Assembly: GCF_030064895.1 (NCBI RefSeq)
Contig: NZ_JASJEB010000015.1
Location: 1 to 59,668 of the forward strand
Direction of reading: 5' to 3'
DNA: 59,668 bases
DNA from: Crocosphaera sp.
GTDB taxonomy: Bacteria; Cyanobacteriota; Cyanobacteriia; Cyanobacteriales; Microcystaceae
Part shown: piece after piece, positions 52,292 through 59,668 of the stretch
Layout of the letters: each line of letters opens with the position of its first letter
Position numbering within the stretch: position 1 is the stretch's first letter
Program-made: the position numbers and the translations under genes
The notes under the pieces: generated by a model
Seen by the model: only the letters and a program-made list of their open reading frames with translations
Databases searched by the model: none
What the model was told of the DNA's origin: nothing

Positions 52292-53320
52292 ATGCTAAGT
52301 CGTCTTATCGCTTTTGTAATGAGTGTGACTTTGCTTTTGTTTGCCTATCCTAATACAACCAAAGCAGATACATTATCGGACAAAACTACATTTATCGTTT
52401 ATGGTGATTTACCTTACATGATCACCCTAGCTGATGGTAGAACCGATGAAGAAGTTTTCTTTGAAGAGATTATTCCCGCTATTAATGAACATGAGGAAGT
52501 CCCTTTTGTTATTCATCTGGGTGATCTAAGTCGACCTGAATATACCTGTTCTGATGAGTTACTACAATCATTTAAAGACGTTTGGGACAATGATATTGAT
52601 AAACCGATCTTTTATACCCCAGGGGATAATGACTGGACAGACTGCGACAGAGAAAAATTAAGCAACCCTCAAAGTGAGTTAGCAAGGTTGGCATCGGTTC
52701 GGAAAATCTTTTTTAGTGAACCAAAAACCCTCGATCCTGAGTGGCAATATGAACAAAACTCGGATCTTCCAGAAAATGCACTTTGGATCTATGACGGAGT
52801 TTTATTTGTCACCGAACATATGATTGGTACAAATAATGGTCGGGATGAGATTTTGCAAGATGATCCAGCAACCATTTTAGCTGAGGTGGAGAAACGAGAT
52901 CAAGCAAACAGAGAATGGCTTGACTATGCCTTCTATCTTGCTCAAAATAATAATGTTGAAGCGGTGGTTCTTGCCAGTCATTTAGATCCCTTTGGCGCTG
53001 AAAATGGGGAAAATGACGCTTTTACACGGTGTACTAATAAACCTGCTTATGCAGGATTTTGCCAGCAGATCCAAACCTTTGCCCATAAGCTCCAAAAACC
53101 CGTATTATACGTTCATGGAGATACCAATGCTTATTGTTATGATAAACCCTTCAACGCAGAATTAGCCCCTAATATTTGGCGGTTAAACGCTCCTGGAGAC
53201 ATCAAATACATTGATGCTTCCTTGATCTCTTATGATCGTTCTAATCAGGATCTTCCCTTTGAAGTAACAGGGTTACTCTCAGGAGAAGTTCCCCCGGAAA
53301 TTTGTGATTATAGTCGCTAA
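52292..53320 (+). CDS. Secreted calcineurin-like metallophosphoesterase
   Basis: I chose the ATG at 52292 (MLSRLIAFVMSVTLLLFAYP), which opens a signal peptide ending near TTKADT; the longer frame starts with TTG. The fold shows metallophosphatase blocks FIVYGDLPY, VIHLGDLSRPEY, YTPGDNDWTDC, VVLASHLDPFG and VLYVHGDTNAYCY, in family order with Asp/His/Asn ligands. The first block lacks the usual DxH histidine, so metal binding may differ. Six or more Cys suggest extracytoplasmic disulphides. Substrate unknown. Confidence 0.8.
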   Translation: MLSRLIAFVMSVTLLLFAYPNTTKADTLSDKTTFIVYGDLPYMITLADGRTDEEVFFEEIIPAINEHEEVPFVIHLGDLSRPEYTCSDELLQSFKDVWDNDIDKPIFYTPGDNDWTDCDREKLSNPQSELARLASVRKIFFSEPKTLDPEWQYEQNSDLPENALWIYDGVLFVTEHMIGTNNGRDEILQDDPATILAEVEKRDQANREWLDYAFYLAQNNNVEAVVLASHLDPFGAENGENDAFTRCTNKPAYAGFCQQIQTFAHKLQKPVLYVHGDTNAYCYDKPFNAELAPNIWRLNAPGDIKYIDASLISYDRSNQDLPFEVTGLLSGEVPPEICDYSR

Positions 53321-53410
53321 ACTTTCAATAAAAATAACTTTTGATAAAGCTAAGAAAAGAAAATAATGTTTTAAACAGTTGATTAACAATTTAATAACCC
53401 AAAAAAAGAC

Positions 53411-53833
53411 ATGGAAGAATTATTTACATTAAAAGAATTATTGCTGTCAGGAAATGTGACGGATGCTTTAGTATTGGTTGAGGAATTGACAGAAATGAGC
53501 AAAGATGATAAGCTCAACAAAATTTTTAGTTTTGGTAAAATTCTGCTTTTACATCTTATTAAACAAGCAGCAGAAAAAAGAAAAACACGCTCATGGGATT
53601 TATCTATTGCTAATGCAGTCAAAGAAATTCAACGAACCAATAAACGACGTAAAACTAAGGGATATTATCTTACGAGAGAAGAGTTAGAAGAGACCCTAGA
53701 AGATGCTTATGATTTAGGTTTAAAAGCTGCTGCAAAAGAAGCTTTTGAAGGTAAATATGAAGCTAAAGAACTTGCAGAAATGGTTAATAAAAGAGCAATT
53801 ATTGATGAAGCAATAGACTTGATTTATAGTTGA
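53411..53833 (+). CDS. DUF29 family protein (140 aa)
   Basis: All-alpha protein of 140 residues with MEELFTLKELLLSGNVTDALVLVEELTEMSKDDKLNKIFSFGKILLLHLIKQ, the pattern I associate with DUF29, a large cyanobacterial family. No known function. KRRKTKGYYLTREELEETLEDAYDLGLKAA is the second helical block. It stands between a phosphoesterase and a Uma2 gene. Confidence 0.75.
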   Translation: MEELFTLKELLLSGNVTDALVLVEELTEMSKDDKLNKIFSFGKILLLHLIKQAAEKRKTRSWDLSIANAVKEIQRTNKRRKTKGYYLTREELEETLEDAYDLGLKAAAKEAFEGKYEAKELAEMVNKRAIIDEAIDLIYS

Positions 53834-53968
53834 TTTTATTTTTTATTTATCAGTATAGTCTAACATATATAAAATTAATTCTTGTAAACAATGTCAACTA
53901 ACTCTTAAAAATTTGCTATATTTACTAAATAGATTATCATATTATTTAGAAGTCAAAAAATACTTGCT

Positions 53969-54532
53969 ATGACTACTATTTTAGATTTGAAACCACTAAT
54001 TAAGTTGACATCAGAAGATTTTTATAAACTCTGTCAAATTAATCGAGACATACCCTTAGAATTAAGTCGTAATGGAGAGTTGATTATTATGTCACCTGTT
54101 GGTGGAGAAAGGGGAAATCAAGAAGCTAATTTAATCACTGATGTAAGTATTTGGAATCGTCAAAATAAGTTAGGTTTTGTATTTAGTTCATCTACTATTT
54201 TTGATTTAGCTAACGGGGGTAAACGATCTCCTGATGTTGCTTGGATAAAAAAGGAAAGATGGGAAAGTTTAACTCTTGAACAAAGGCAAAAATTTCCCCC
54301 TATTTGTCCTGATTTTGTAATTGAATTACGTTCTCCTAGTGATCGATTAAAACCGTTACAAGACAAAATGCAAGAGTATTTAGATGCTGGTTTAAAATTA
54401 GGATGGTTAATTAATCCCCAAGATAATAATGTGGAAATTTATCGTACGAATCAATCAGTAGAAGTTTTAAGTTTACCTGTTTCTTTATCAGGGGAAGATG
54501 TTTTACCTAATTTTGATTTATTAGTTGAATAG
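53969..54532 (+). CDS. Uma2 family (DUF820) nuclease-like protein
   Basis: 187 residues of the PD-(D/E)xK superfamily. GELIIMSPVGGERGNQEANL is the typical N-terminal block, then RSPDVAWIKKERW (catalytic Asp), FVIELRSPSDRLKPLQDKMQEYLDAG (E-x-R/K), and LGWLINPQDNNVEIYR. Cyanobacteria carry many of these. Activity and target unknown. Similar to the gene at 58748 (other strand), so a pair flanks the TIR-STAND gene. Confidence 0.85.
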   Translation: MTTILDLKPLIKLTSEDFYKLCQINRDIPLELSRNGELIIMSPVGGERGNQEANLITDVSIWNRQNKLGFVFSSSTIFDLANGGKRSPDVAWIKKERWESLTLEQRQKFPPICPDFVIELRSPSDRLKPLQDKMQEYLDAGLKLGWLINPQDNNVEIYRTNQSVEVLSLPVSLSGEDVLPNFDLLVE

Positions 54533-54760
54533 TTGAGGGAAAATAATCATATTGAAAAGTTAATTGCAAAAAAATGTTGCTATAATTAATTCAAATAGAA
54601 ATGATACAAAACTTTCCTAATGTATTTTTAGCATAGTGAAAATCCTGCTCATACTCCTCTTTCTCAAACTTATTTAAAACAACTATATATCCTTATTTTC
54701 ATTCCAAGAAAACAATAACCTCATTAACTGCTTAAGCAAAATATGTAGTGCTATGATAAT

Positions 54761-57044
54761 TTAGCCAAAGCCTTTTGGTTTTTTAGATGACTTACTAGAT
54801 TTCTTCGATTTTACCTTATTACTTCGCTTAATACACTCCTCTAGTTTCTGTTGATAAAAATCAATGTTTTTATCTTCCCTTACTCTACAATTTTCAACGG
54901 CTTTCTCATAAAAATAAATTGCTTTTTTAAATTGTCTTGTACGGTTATAAAATTTTCCCAGATGTTCATAACAGTGTACCATCTCAGGGTGATCAGTTTT
55001 TAGTAATTTTTCCCAAATACTGTTACATTCCAATAACATTTTTTCAGTTTGATCATTATTTTTCTTTTGCCAATCGTAACAAGCACCAAGACTCAAGAAA
55101 GATTGTCCAACAAGATAAGATTCCTCTCCAAGCTCTTCCCGTCTTAGTTGTAAAGAAAATCTATAACTTTTTTCTGCTTCCGAATATTTCTCTAAATCTT
55201 CTAAAATTAAACCTAAATTATTATGTATATTTGACACCATAGATTTAATTTCTTTATCATGACTATTTTCATCAATTTTGCATAGCTCTAAAGAATATTT
55301 AGTACATTTCTCTGCCTCTAATAAAAACTGTTTTCGTTGAGATAACTGTGGAAGACTTGTCAAGTTTTGAGCTAAATTCCAGAATGCACTTCCTAAAGTG
55401 TTAAAACTATTAGCAATAACTATATTAAGAGAAGTAGCAGAACTAATCGTAATTTTTGTTCTACTAGATTGAGGTAGAAGTTTTTTAGCTATGTTTATTG
55501 CCTCTTTTGCCAGGGTAATGGCTTCTTCCGTTTTTTGGACATGGATATAAGATGTTGCTAACAAATTAAGTGATTCACAATATTCTATTGAGCTAGTTAA
55601 ATGAAATTTTTGATAGAGTTGATTAATTTTCAGTGATATTTGTTCTACTTTTTCATACAAACCTTTATAAAAATATTGAGAAGCGATAACTTCTAACGCC
55701 TTCAATGCTTTAGGCTCTAAATAATCTAGTTGGAGTTGTAACTCAAATAATTCAACCACAATTTTTTCAGCCTCATCCAGTTTATTTTCGATAATATATA
55801 AACATGCTAAATGATCAAGTCCTAAACGATAATTGAGATGTTTGGGATCGAGAATACGCTTATTGAGTTCCAATGCTTGTACTAAATAATTCTCTGCTTC
55901 TTCATATCTTTTCATATACATATATAAAGACCCTAAATTCTTAGCTGCTTGACTAAAAATTGCTTGAGCAAAAGATGATTTATCTTGAATATCTTTTTCA
56001 ACAATCTCTAATATCAGTTTGTAACAATTTTCAGCTTTTTGGTATTTTTTTATTGATTGATAAACTAATGCTAAATTATTATTTACTAAGATAAATACAA
56101 TTACTTTTTGAGCAATTTCTTTTTTATTATTTGATTCAATATTTATATTAGAGAGCATCCCAATTTTGCATCTCAGTTTTTTTAAGAGGTGCTGAAACCC
56201 TTGGGCGATAATTACTAGGGGTGATGCTTTTACAAAAATGGGATGCTTTCTTATATTATATTCGTTTGAAAGAATCCAATTAATTGTAGAATAGTATAAA
56301 GTAGTTAAGATTTCTTCAGCTTCCTTATATTTTTCCATTTGCCGATAAGTATCACCTATTGCGTTAGTTATCATCATTGTTTCATGATGATTTTTTCCCA
56401 GACATTTTTTGGCGATTGATAAAGCTTTCTCTAATAATTTTAATGCTTCGTGATATTCATATATATCCTTTAAAGCAAGTGAAAAATCATTATAAAGAAC
56501 CATCAAATGTATATCACCTTCCCCAAATTTATTTTTAGTAATATCTATATACTCTCTAAAATATTGAATTGCTTGAGGGTAAAAACCTTGACTCACATAA
56601 AAACTATTAATTGCCTTAATCGGTAAATTCCAATCACTAGGAATTACACTATTATAATCATCAACAATATAATCATAGTGGTATTGAGTAATCTGTTTAA
56701 TATGAGGAATTAGTGGTTTTAAATATTCTATTTTTTCGGGTGATAATGTAGTGTAAGTAAACCTTTCAGATTTTTCAACTAATAGCTTACAATAATCTTG
56801 TTTTGCTCTTAGCATAAACTTAGATTCATCTAGTTTCTCTCTCAGATAAAGATGAATTAGACTATGAAGTTCATATTCAGTATTGGCTATTTGCTTAACT
56901 AAGTTTAAATTAACTAAACTATCCATTAACCATTCTTCTATATCATCTTCATCTTCATTAGGAAATAACTCGTTAATCCATGTTTGTTGAATAGGAGCAA
57001 TAGCAAATAAGCTAAGCGAAAGAGCTAAATTTTGAATTTTGTTA
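54761..57044 (-). pseudogene. TPR sensor part of a split TIR-NB-ARC-TPR gene
   Basis: This is the C-terminal part. It continues (after removal of the 103-bp element) from NKIQNLALSLSLFAIAPIQQTW, through the winged-helix end of NB-ARC (DSLVNLNLVKQIANTEYELHSLIHLYLREKL), to about ten TPR-like helix pairs (YNDFSLALKDIYEYHEALKLLEKAL; LGLILEDLEKYSEAEKSYRFSLQLRREELG) and a basic KSKKSSKSSKKPKGFG end. The TPR set is the likely ligand sensor. The first Met of the open frame (56926) has no ribosome binding site and lies after the WH start, so it is a severed 3' part, not a proven gene. Confidence 0.85.
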
Positions 57045-57147
57045 TAGCAATAGACAGGCTAGTTAGGACACATAAATTATATTTTAAGGGAACAGGGAAC
57101 AGGGAACAGGGAACAGAAAAATGTCCTAATAGCTTTGGCGACTGCTA
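57045..57147. mobile_element. 103-bp MITE (type C), copy 2, inside a TIR-NB-ARC-TPR gene
   Basis: Identical to 12614-12716 over all 103 bases. TA flanks both sides (57043-57044, 57148-57149). It enters the minus-strand gene between codons for PET and NKIQ; excision of the element and one TA restores the frame. It ends the NB-ARC frame at 57077 by adding IAVAKAIRTFFCSLFPVPC. Confidence 0.92.
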
Positions 57148-57967
57148 TAGTTTCTGGTTCATTTTCTAATTCATACCAACTTAAATCAAAAGCAACTTTA
57201 ACACCATATTTTGCTGTCATTTCAGGATGAGGTTTACTTAATAAACTATTATCTTTTAAACCTCTTTCTTTTAACTTTTCTCTAGCCTTTTTTATTGTCC
57301 ATCTCCGTCTTTTTAATAGTCTCGCTATTAATTCTAAAGCCAAAGGTAAATATCCTAAATCTTGACAAAGTAATTTTGATTCCTCAAGTTCTGTATTAAT
57401 TCTCTCATCGCCAACATAAGATCGTAATAAATCAAGGGAAGCGTCTTCAGAAAATTCTTCTAAAGGAATATTCTCTATAGTATCGGATAAGTATTTACAG
57501 CGAGTTGTAATAATTACTTTAAATTTTTTGAATTCATAGGGTGGTAAATATTCAAAAAAATCTTCAGCATTGCGTACATCATCAAAAATAATCAAGACAT
57601 CCCCATTAATCCAATTCTGCCAGCAATCTTGTACTTTTTCAACAGGAGTTGTTCCACTGGGTTCACCTAATTTAAGTTTAATCTTGAAAAAACTTATAAT
57701 ATCGGCACTTGGATCATTTCCTTTAACATTTACCCAACATATCCCACCTTGATAAGTTCCTTTTTTATATTCTTGCCAAGCATATCGTAAAGCAAGTTCT
57801 GTTTTGCCAATTCCTCCCATTCCTGAGAGAGTGGAAATAGCGACTATGTCAGCTTTTTCTAGCTTGTTACATAACTCATTTAAATCTGTTTCTCGTCCTA
57901 CAAATTTAGCAATACCACTATTTTTTAGATTTTGAGGAATTAAACGATCTAATTGATCTTTTTTTTT
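57077..57967 (-). pseudogene. NB-ARC ATPase part of a split TIR-NB-ARC-TPR gene
   Basis: The frame runs from the A9 tract (57959-57967) through DQLDRLIPQNLKNSG and FVGRETDLNELCNKL to Walker A SGMGGIGKTELALRYA, Walker B DVLIIFDDV, sensor VIITTRCKYL and GLPLAL-like LGYLPLALELIARLL, then KVAFDLSWYELENEPET. The first Met of the open frame lies within Walker A, so it cannot start its own protein. It must be entered from the TIR frame by a -1 shift. It ends in the inserted element at 57077. Confidence 0.88.
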
Positions 57968-58575
57968 AAATTCTGGGAGTCTTGTAGTCTATCTTCAATT
58001 GCATTAATAACTTGAGCAAAATCATTTTCTAAATGCTCATCCAAAGACAAATTATTCATGTTCGAGATAACATCAATTAATTGATCCCACTTATTTCTTA
58101 TATCAGAATAAAGACTTAATTCCTCTTGGATTCCTAATGTATTTGACATTGATTGAAGTTTTCTATATTCATTATCTAACTCACTATGTTTTTCTTCCCA
58201 ATACTGAAGATAACGTAATTTTTCTATTACGTTGTAAATTTCGCTATCTTGAGTGACGATTGGAAAAATTCTTTCATAAAACTGACCATTTTGGGCAATT
58301 TCTAATAACTCAAACATACAACTCTTGGATTTGAGATATTGTTTACTAATAATGATAATTATCGCTTTTCCTTGTCCTAATCTTTTCATAAACTCCAGAA
58401 TTTGACCCTTATAACCAATTTCTCCTTTATCCCTCAGTGTTTTAAACATTTGTATTTGTTTTGCTTGACAAATACTTTCTAACTTTTCGACAATTTCTTC
58501 GCTTTTTCCGCCCCATGCGTAGGAGATAAAAACTGCCTCTCGCGTAGTTAAATCAGAATTTTTTTGTTTTTCCAT
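57949..58575 (-). CDS. TIR-domain protein (N-terminal part of TIR-NB-ARC-TPR)
   Basis: TIR domain in residues ~15-145: EAVFISYAWGGKSEEIVEKL, KGQILEFMKRLGQGKAIIIIISKQYLKSKSCMFELLEIA (with the catalytic-type Glu in FELLE), then ERIFPIV. A helical linker of ~60 residues follows and the 0-frame stops after KKKIN. TIR domains of bacteria often cleave NAD+ when activated. In-frame 0 ends as a TIR-only protein of 208 residues; with a -1 shift and without the element the product would be 1236 residues. I chose the ATG at 58575; a GTG four codons upstream is in frame. Confidence 0.82.
   Translation of the reverse strand: MEKQKNSDLTTREAVFISYAWGGKSEEIVEKLESICQAKQIQMFKTLRDKGEIGYKGQILEFMKRLGQGKAIIIIISKQYLKSKSCMFELLEIAQNGQFYERIFPIVTQDSEIYNVIEKLRYLQYWEEKHSELDNEYRKLQSMSNTLGIQEELSLYSDIRNKWDQLIDVISNMNNLSLDEHLENDFAQVINAIEDRLQDSQNLKKKIN
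57958..57964 (-). promoter_or_regulatory. -1 slippery heptamer A AAA AAG
   Basis: Within A9 the TIR frame reads TTA AAA AAA AAG ATC AAT TAG. The last seven bases before ATC are A AAA AAG in the correct phase, the same heptamer as E. coli dnaX. A -1 slip gives GAT CAA TTA GAT CGT, which continues as the NB-ARC. Either programmed or transcriptional slippage, or a 1-base deletion/insertion mutation; the sequence alone does not tell. Confidence 0.65.
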
Positions 58576-58689
58576 ACCTTTTAGCACTTTTTAAAGCGAA
58601 TAAGTGTATTTGAGTAAATAGCTTAGCTTGAAATTTATTATATCAGCAGATAATGGATCATTGTATCAGGATTGAAGGAGGCAGGAGGC

Positions 58690-58714
58690 CGATTAGAGGA
58701 CGTACCTCTAATCG
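58690..58714. other. Perfect 10-bp hairpin between TIR and Uma2 genes
   Basis: CGATTAGAGG (58690-58699) pairs with CCTCTAATCG (58705-58714) around ACGTA. No T run on either strand. A REP-like dispersed palindrome or a processing signal are both possible. Confidence 0.6.
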
Positions 58715-58747
58715 AAGACCACCAACTCGAAAATTGTGGTGAAAGTT

Positions 58748-59323
58748 TTACCAAATTAGAGCTAAATCTAATCTAAATTCGGGTAAAATATCCTCTCCTG
58801 ATAAGGTTTGAGGATTATCTAAAATAACTTTTTCTTGTCCTTGACGATAGATTTCTACTTGTTTCTTTTCAGGGTTAATTAACCAGCCCAACTTTACCCC
58901 ATTATTCATATATTCTTGCATCTTTTCTTGAAGTTCCTTTAAAGAATCGGTTTTAGACTTGAGTTCTAAGACAAAATCTGGTGCAATGGGTGGAAACTTT
59001 TCTTTCTCTTCTTGTGTTAATTTATCCCATCTTTCTTGTTGAATATAAGCCACATCTGGAGAACGATTACTCCCTAAAGGAAGTTTAAAACCGGTAGAAG
59101 AATCGAAAATTTGTCCTAATTTTTTCTGACGATTCCATATACCAAAATCGGTAATTAAATTAGCATTTCTTTTCCCCGTTTCTCCTCCTGTGGGCGACAT
59201 AATAATGATTTCTCCATTTTGATTTTGTTCCAACTTTAACTCAGGGTTATTACGACAAAGTTTAAAAAACTGTTCATCGTTAATCTTGGTAATGACATCA
59301 AAATTAATAGTGTAAGCATTCAT
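58748..59323 (-). CDS. Uma2 family (DUF820) nuclease-like protein
   Basis: 191 residues. GEIIIMSPTGGETGKRNANL, RSPDVAYIQQERWDKL, FVLELKSKTDSLKELQEKMQEYMNNG and KLGWLINPEKKQVEIYR match the Uma2 pattern with catalytic D...ExK complete. Paralogue of 53969-54532 with the same block order. Together they bracket the broken TIR-STAND gene. Role unknown. Confidence 0.86.
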   Translation of the reverse strand: MNAYTINFDVITKINDEQFFKLCRNNPELKLEQNQNGEIIIMSPTGGETGKRNANLITDFGIWNRQKKLGQIFDSSTGFKLPLGSNRSPDVAYIQQERWDKLTQEEKEKFPPIAPDFVLELKSKTDSLKELQEKMQEYMNNGVKLGWLINPEKKQVEIYRQGQEKVILDNPQTLSGEDILPEFRLDLALIW

Positions 59324-59409
59324 CCTGATATCTCCGCATTCTTTCTTCTACTAAACAATTATGATAGCAAAAATAAATAGAAACATGAAATATCATACCA
59401 ATATAAAAC

Positions 59410-59444
59410 AAAAAAGCACCCCCATTTCTGAGAGTGCTTTTTTT
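59410..59444. terminator. Bidirectional terminator of psbA
   Basis: GCACCCCC (59416-59423) pairs with GAGAGTGC (59430-59437) with some G-T pairs. Six A precede and seven T follow, so it acts in both directions. It lies about 25 bases after the psbA stop codon (minus strand). Confidence 0.85.
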
Positions 59445-59469
59445 CTAATATTTAGTTTTTATCAAGGAA

Positions 59470-59668
59470 TTAACCATTGATTGCAGGAGCAGATACAGGC
59501 TCAGCAGAAGCTAAGTCTAAGGGGAAGTTGTGAGCGTTGCGCTCGTGCATTACTTCCATTCCGATTCCTGCACGGTTTAATACATCAGCCCAGGTTCCGA
59601 TTACACGGCCTTGAGAATCAAGGATAGACTGGTTGAAGTTGAAACCGTTTAAGTTGAACGCCATGGTG
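59470..59668 (-). CDS. psbA: Photosystem II D1 protein, C-terminal part (runs off the window)
   Basis: The last ~66 codons of psb[22 protein letters not shown] is the conserved region before helix end, and [20 protein letters not shown] holds the C-terminal ligands of the Mn4CaO5 cluster (His, Glu, Asp, and the terminal Ala after processing). The 16-residue-type tail [12 protein letters not shown] is removed by CtpA. The gene starts beyond the right edge. Confidence 0.97.

Follow-up and report, generated by a model that had tools for sequence, protein, structure and literature searches.

The joint between a TIR effector and an NB-ARC receptor on the minus strand of the window, by which we mean the whole analysed stretch of 59,668 nucleotides from Crocosphaera sp., is probably a translational recoding site, at which translation would mostly terminate and in a minority of cases slip by -1 into the receptor. 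The joint has an A AAA AAG heptamer in phase and an overlapping -1 frame without a start, and there are 12 other genes with such a joint. Most ribosomes would halt at a TAG and release a free and complete TIR domain, and a minority would slip by -1 on the A AAA AAG and enter the NB-ARC part, resulting in a receptor that carries the TIR. Family-wide, the joint would determine how much effector is free and how much is part of a receptor. Most of the genes would do this by an apparent UGA or UAG readthrough with a hairpin or pseudoknot on the 3' side, and a minority by -1 frameshifting; a few activated receptors may then nucleate the assembly of many free effector domains. The anatomy of the sequence, its recurrence, the phase and the covariation of the structure are seen directly, and it is the behaviour of the ribosomes, the ratio of the products and the role of the free effector in the assembly of the signal that we infer from them. 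That cyanobacterial NLR-like receptors set their effector ratio by recoding at a portable joint, with effectors and engines being swapped and with the readthrough element, a small pseudoknot, being a new RNA motif, is reasonably likely; the effectors on such a cassette would be TIR, CHAT or helical, and the engines NB-ARC or NACHT.

The TIR effector ORF (57949-58575, minus strand) begins with ATG, represents the 0 frame and ends with the TAG at 57949-57951; an alternative GTG is found at 58585-58587, upstream of the ATG (58575). Pfam assigns the ORF to TIR_2 with 41.5 bits (cut-off 28; E 2.2e-10). Searched against solved structures, the TIR piece matched a non-TIR chain best (E 0.015) and the TIR of flax L6 second (E 0.03), and this weak L6 match pairs SKSCMFELLEI of the window with SKWCLMELAEI; the Glu in the SKSCMFELLEI stretch is presumably the NADase residue. 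As judged by eye, several of the closest TIRs elsewhere have their end at a similar position within the domain. The stop codon lies seven bases beyond a run of nine A (57959-57967, minus strand; T9 on the plus strand), and the heptamer A AAA AAG (57958-57964, minus strand) has the phase in the TIR frame that is required for -1 re-pairing. Across the joint, the TIR frame reads ...CAG AAT TTA AAA AAA AAG ATC AAT TAG and the -1 frame ...TTT AAA AAA AAA GAT CAA TTA..., and the two overlap by 37 nt (57952-57988, minus strand). The -1 frame comprises the linker and the NB-ARC part (57077-57988, minus strand, 303 codons) and has its stop at 57077-57079 within an inserted element. It holds FVGRE...GMGGIGKTE with the P-loop GMGGIGKT at 57800-57823 (minus strand), reaches 53.7 bits for Pfam NB-ARC (cut-off 23.5), and lacks any ATG, GTG or TTG ahead of the P-loop. 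TPR families also exceed the Pfam cut-off at this locus, and according to Pfam the TIR, NB-ARC and TPR domains share one locus and strand. The first-pass annotation had claimed that the TIR frame ends soon after the A9 run with an in-phase A AAA AAG, that a -1 slip leads into FVGRE...GMGGIGKT, and that the NB-ARC frame has no Met ahead of Walker A, and all of this has been borne out, the -1 frame being open from 57988.

The window thus possesses an X XXY YYZ heptamer in 0-frame phase inside the frame overlap. An overlap of this size received an in-phase A AAA AAG in 1.3% of 4000 random codon draws from the TIR ORF, which is why the motif by itself is suggestive and not conclusive. In ORFs of at least 150 aa, true cases included, A AAA AAG occurs 7 times in 16,084 codons of the window and 41 times in 172,254 codons of the surveyed loci. 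The usual stimulators of -1 frameshifting are a 3' structure or an upstream Shine-Dalgarno motif, which are not obligatory in bacteria; the 3' region in the window has no unusual structure (fold z = +0.71), and no Shine-Dalgarno-like motif could be seen by eye just upstream of the heptamer.

The comparison with relatives speaks for a recoding joint and against a chance lesion. NB-ARC relatives were drawn from 59 genomes and 80 named loci, giving 106 locus rows with a recognised P-loop and five further rows without one. Genes were regarded as start-poor if they had no ATG more than 40 codons ahead of the P-loop and at most 100 open codons there, which applied to 35 rows that represent 33 distinct genes. 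ATG is entirely absent before the P-loop in 26 of these 33, and ATG, GTG and TTG are all absent in five (window, L011, L013, L032, L093). The effector ORF is out of frame in four start-poor genes (window, L018, L020, L133), all of which need a -1 shift and have an in-phase A AAA AAG in the overlap. The remaining 29 have a putative effector ORF in the NB-ARC frame that is ended by a stop. Joints of the recoding type are frequent in the relatives, mostly as apparent stop readthrough, and this aspect had been missed in the first-pass annotation. At L007, small ORFs are found between an effector-like ORF and the NB-ARC frame, which we take to resemble a HicA/HicB pair.

Surveys of CHAT and of the NACHT N-terminus added L170, L166, L200, L171, L172, L182, L202 and L227 to the -1 class, and a TIR search within the genus added L259, so that 13 genes, window included, share the -1 offset after an effector-type ORF. 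These genes are not independent, as six of them (L018, L170, L166, L200, L171, L172) share one CHAT effector type, identified in L018 as EAD10-CHAT. The heptamer is A AAA AAG in 12 genes and A AAA AAA in L202, and it is followed in all 13 by a 0-frame tail of 0-2 codons. The A run has a length of nine in seven genes, eight in two, ten in two and six in two (L020, L133), with the phase being kept. It had been proposed in the first-pass annotation to see whether relatives conserve the frame break with A AAA AAG, and relatives with an in-frame A10 or A7 had been named as the sign of a simple mutation; the break does recur, the run length varies at constant phase, and this is not the outcome that had been named. 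The effectors of the -1 genes vary (TIR, CHAT and an unknown type), and in 9 of the 12 members other than the window the -1 frame stays open for at least 500 codons. Two of the 13, L170 and L200/L203, have a downstream frame that soon closes, which is why these copies look decayed. L259 is a TIR gene of the same genus with 53% identity in which the TIR likewise ends at an in-phase A AAA AAG ahead of a -1 frame; its -1 frame has a possible GTG start, and its partner is, by eye, not a STAND NTPase. An orthologue of the whole window gene was not found in 243, 9 and 50 genomes. Similar arrangements outside the count of 13 are a CHAT ORF with an A9 run in L186 (G221:C90), where the overlapping downstream ORF needs +1 (or -2) and no STAND was identified, a similar A run at the record end in L201, and L225, which has no upstream ATG, yet neither recoding device.

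The same cassette was found by a pattern search between CHAT and NACHT genes on plasmid pn3 of Nostoc sp. UHCC 0926. The pattern TWAAAAAAAAGTCCRRTTAA has five matches in 243 genomes, all five at effector/receptor joints including the decayed L170, and its reversed control has none in these genomes; the window itself does not match this stricter pattern. A window-type pattern with one mismatch allowed gave four matches in 386 genomes, three of which are joints (the window and two with CHAT) and one of which is unrelated, and its reversed control likewise gave four. A modular use of the joint is further suggested by the CHAT effector, which precedes NB-ARC in L018 and a NACHT-type frame in L166, L171 and L172, and by L227, which has a different effector ORF of 179 aa on the same cassette. 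TIR is found with both devices, since L084 (Oculatella) has a TIR ORF, TIR_2 according to Pfam, on a TGA element. The closest NB-ARC relative, L267, has 84% DNA identity to the window, and the match starts just 3' of the TIR stop; its upstream part is a different domain that is fused in frame without recoding, so continuous in-frame fusion exists alongside recoded joints. As the match begins 3' of the TIR stop and another domain lies upstream, the recoding site travels with the effector side.

At the same joint, the 29 in-frame start-poor genes have a stop and hairpin layout that suggests stop-codon readthrough. What is called effector in this class is inferred from its position: none of L096, L161, L070 and L013 has a Pfam match above cut-off, and L155 and L159 have weak hydrolase-like matches below it. 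The effector ORF ends with TGA (27 genes) or TAG (two), never TAA; past the stop come 8 nt and then a 5-bp hairpin (S1) with an 8-nt loop, and NB-ARC continues in the frame of the effector. In 25 of the 29, S1 has all five of its pairs, in a fixed register. In the alignment A2 of these 29 elements, 97.1% of S1 is paired and four of its five pairs show double changes, and a second helix (S2), in which the loop pairs with a downstream CCC, is 76.8% paired. The covariation score of A2 is 0.491, versus at most 0.134 for slid structures, and is reached by 0 of 500 shuffles. A covariance model, R1, was built from S1 only, and at E <= 0.01 it had at least 56 matches in at least 38 of 386 genomes of the phylum, a lower bound because strict filters were used and 14 candidates were scored per genome. 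All 30 fetched R1 loci have TGA (28) or TAG (two) first and an in-frame ORF upstream, and 24 of them have at least 500 open in-frame codons downstream up to the end of the fetched stretch. Six have 97-108 downstream codons (L139, L142, L145, L148, L155, and L162, which is at a contig end). At L145:1501-1554 and L148:712-765, the frame continues past the readthrough element for 97 codons, with no NB-ARC, and in L145 a TPR-like frame can be seen by eye after this extension.

Alignment A3, comprising 25 elements outside A2 (24 R1 loci and L125), has S1 97.6% and S2 84.0% paired, with a covariation score again beyond 500 shuffles; two weaker measures did not exceed all shuffles there (pairs with a double change 98/500, pair types 36/500). 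For S2 alone, the covariation score of A2 was reached by 0 of 500 shuffles, and that of A3 was weaker (23/500). The hairpin of the readthrough class is well supported, and the pseudoknot is probable. Among 55 elements (29 of A2, 25 of A3, and L064), the first codon is TGA in 50, TAG in four and TGG in one. The latter, L064:587-640 (Trichodesmium MAG_R03), carries a naturally occurring sense codon at the putative readthrough site: TGG replaces TGA, and the effector-like ORF and NB-ARC form one frame that runs on through the remnant of the element. In the linker past the element, nine close pairs, some of which share members, differ 40/33/94 times at codon positions 1/2/3, as is to be expected of a translated linker. 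A reading of the UGA as selenocysteine was rejected, as TAG in four and TGG in one of the 55 elements speak against it. RF01852, a weak test, had matches in 39 of 39 genomes, with three just over the cut-off and none over it in this genome; the control genomes were matched in 14 of 14 cases, five over the cut-off. This genome has a UGA and hairpin joint of its own, where an ORF of 136 aa meets an NB-ARC gene (L161, G000:C20:92534-92587). The window has no readthrough element according to R1 with its strict filters, C20:92534-92587 being the match listed in the genome.

The window copy itself is interrupted by an insert of about 105-108 bp (57043-57150, no strand assigned) with TATAGCA...TGCTATA ends and AGGGAACAGGGAAC direct repeats inside, which is MITE-like. 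It is multi-copy, with at least 40 matches of 98-100% identity in this genome, the window's own included, among the 40 of 172 candidates that were scored, and the edges are identical in the six other copies inspected. The insert splits the gene C-terminal to NB-ARC and brings in the stop at 57077-57079, so that the window has no single coding path through TIR, NB-ARC and TPR. The C-terminal part, a TPR ORF of 721 aa from an internal ATG (54761-56926, minus strand), is severed from NB-ARC. Because of the insert and its stop, the window copy as sequenced is unable to make the whole receptor; the short product, the TIR, is unaffected. The first-pass annotation had considered a TIR-only protein and a full fusion possible; the -1 slip has gained support from the recurrence of the site at similar joints, and the full TIR-NB-ARC-TPR fusion is blocked by the insert. 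The window copy is thus probably a damaged member that still keeps the frameshift cassette. Two similar ORFs of about 190 aa flank the locus (53969-54532 and 58748-59323), which by eye are presumably Uma2/DUF820-like.

Such damage raises the question of simple decay, in which the frame break at A9 would have arisen as an indel of the homopolymer after the insert had inactivated the gene. The insert is real and multi-copy, A9 is prone to indels, the closest NB-ARC relative is a continuous fusion to another domain, and L170 and L200/L203 appear decayed as well, yet other genes with different effectors share the offset, the heptamer and the short 0-frame tail, mostly ahead of a long open -1 frame, and the related cassette pattern is specific to such joints, which makes decay an unlikely explanation. 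An assembly or sequencing error in the homopolymer of nine would be conceivable in a draft genome of 188 contigs, but breaks of the same kind are found in other genomes, complete plasmid records among them, which makes it highly improbable.

Two products could also arise without any slipping of ribosomes, by transcriptional slippage, in which RNA polymerase would slip on the A9 and produce mixed mRNAs. Runs of 8-10 A are long enough for polymerase slippage and are present in 11 of the 13 genes, for which this process is possible, but L020 and L133 have only A6 and have nevertheless kept the heptamer and a significant 3' hairpin (z -2.85 and -3.03, respectively), which fits ribosomal slipping. 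In the other 10 of 12 members tested, window included, the 3' fold is unremarkable (z -1.6 to +1.25). What is conserved is the phase of the heptamer and not the length of the run, and a long run is not common to all members, so that polymerase slippage is rather doubtful as the general explanation. It is very unlikely that there are simply two separate genes, a TIR alone and an NB-ARC/TPR protein made from an internal start or by termination-reinitiation. Such loci do appear in annotations as pairs of genes, there are TIR ORFs that stand without NB-ARC, and in 28 of the 33 start-poor genes at least one ATG, GTG or TTG can be found after the upstream stop and ahead of the P-loop. The window, L011, L013, L032 and L093 have none, however, the changes in the linker of the sister class are of the coding type, and L064 has a TGG instead of the stop.

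Other database searches added little. Rfam gave nothing relevant on four readthrough loci or on window positions 53000-59668, and in PADLOC the TIR and NB-ARC pieces of the window had no match and the third piece had a weak TPR match. Viral contigs had 0 exact matches to one strict readthrough pattern, and the window TIR matched two distant plasmid records only.

It is usual to depict bacterial NLR-like receptors as one polypeptide each. Should many of them produce free effector in excess and only a few fused receptors, signalling could run by nucleation and amplification, for which animal inflammasomes offer an analogy, and the ratio of effector to receptor would be written into the mRNA. If this is true, gene callers split such genes or start them too late, as is the case in five annotated records. 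In L251, L252 and L253 from Nostocales plasmids, considering the tables only, the downstream gene is annotated 87-306 nt past the end of the first ORF; the joint is missing from their annotation because the downstream gene starts inside or after the linker. The readthrough element would then be a rare example of structure-stimulated readthrough in bacterial cellular genes, and a candidate bacterial readthrough pseudoknot would be added that is directly testable.

A description of recoding in STAND or NLR genes was not found in the literature searched, which is weak evidence, subscription papers being mostly outside of it. The words frameshift, readthrough, stop codon and recoding are absent from the text of the papers on EAD and TRADD-N (PMC8195603, PMC7159879), and neither recoding at effector/STAND joints nor a conserved bacterial readthrough hairpin was found in the searched text of PMC3711429, PMC5009743 and PMC4066793. 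Bacteria are known to use A AAA AAG for programmed -1 ribosomal frameshifting (PMC4066793). The novel aspect would be its use at effector/STAND joints, together with the conserved bacterial readthrough hairpin.

In their domain plan and cyanobacterial abundance, the proteins resemble the known bacterial NLR-like STAND proteins, which combine NB-ARC or NACHT with an N-terminal effector and repeats. A AAA AAG frameshifting is well known from the dnaX and IS3-family type, and the -1 joints are similar to these sites with respect to heptamer, phase, overlapping frames and the two N-coterminal products that are expected, as are L020 and L133 with respect to their 3' hairpins. They differ in the gene class, which is an effector joined to a STAND-type receptor, and in that a long A8-A10 run without a significant hairpin is the rule among the members, the window being without a detected stimulator. 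The sister joints rather recall gammaretroviral gag-pol, in which stop readthrough comes with an 8-nt spacer and a pseudoknot: they likewise have a stop, 8 nt, a compact hairpin and a probable second helix, and a short protein would be made either alone or fused to a larger one. Unlike gag-pol, they are bacterial cellular genes and mostly use UGA, and the window differs from gag-pol by its frameshift arrangement in place of readthrough.
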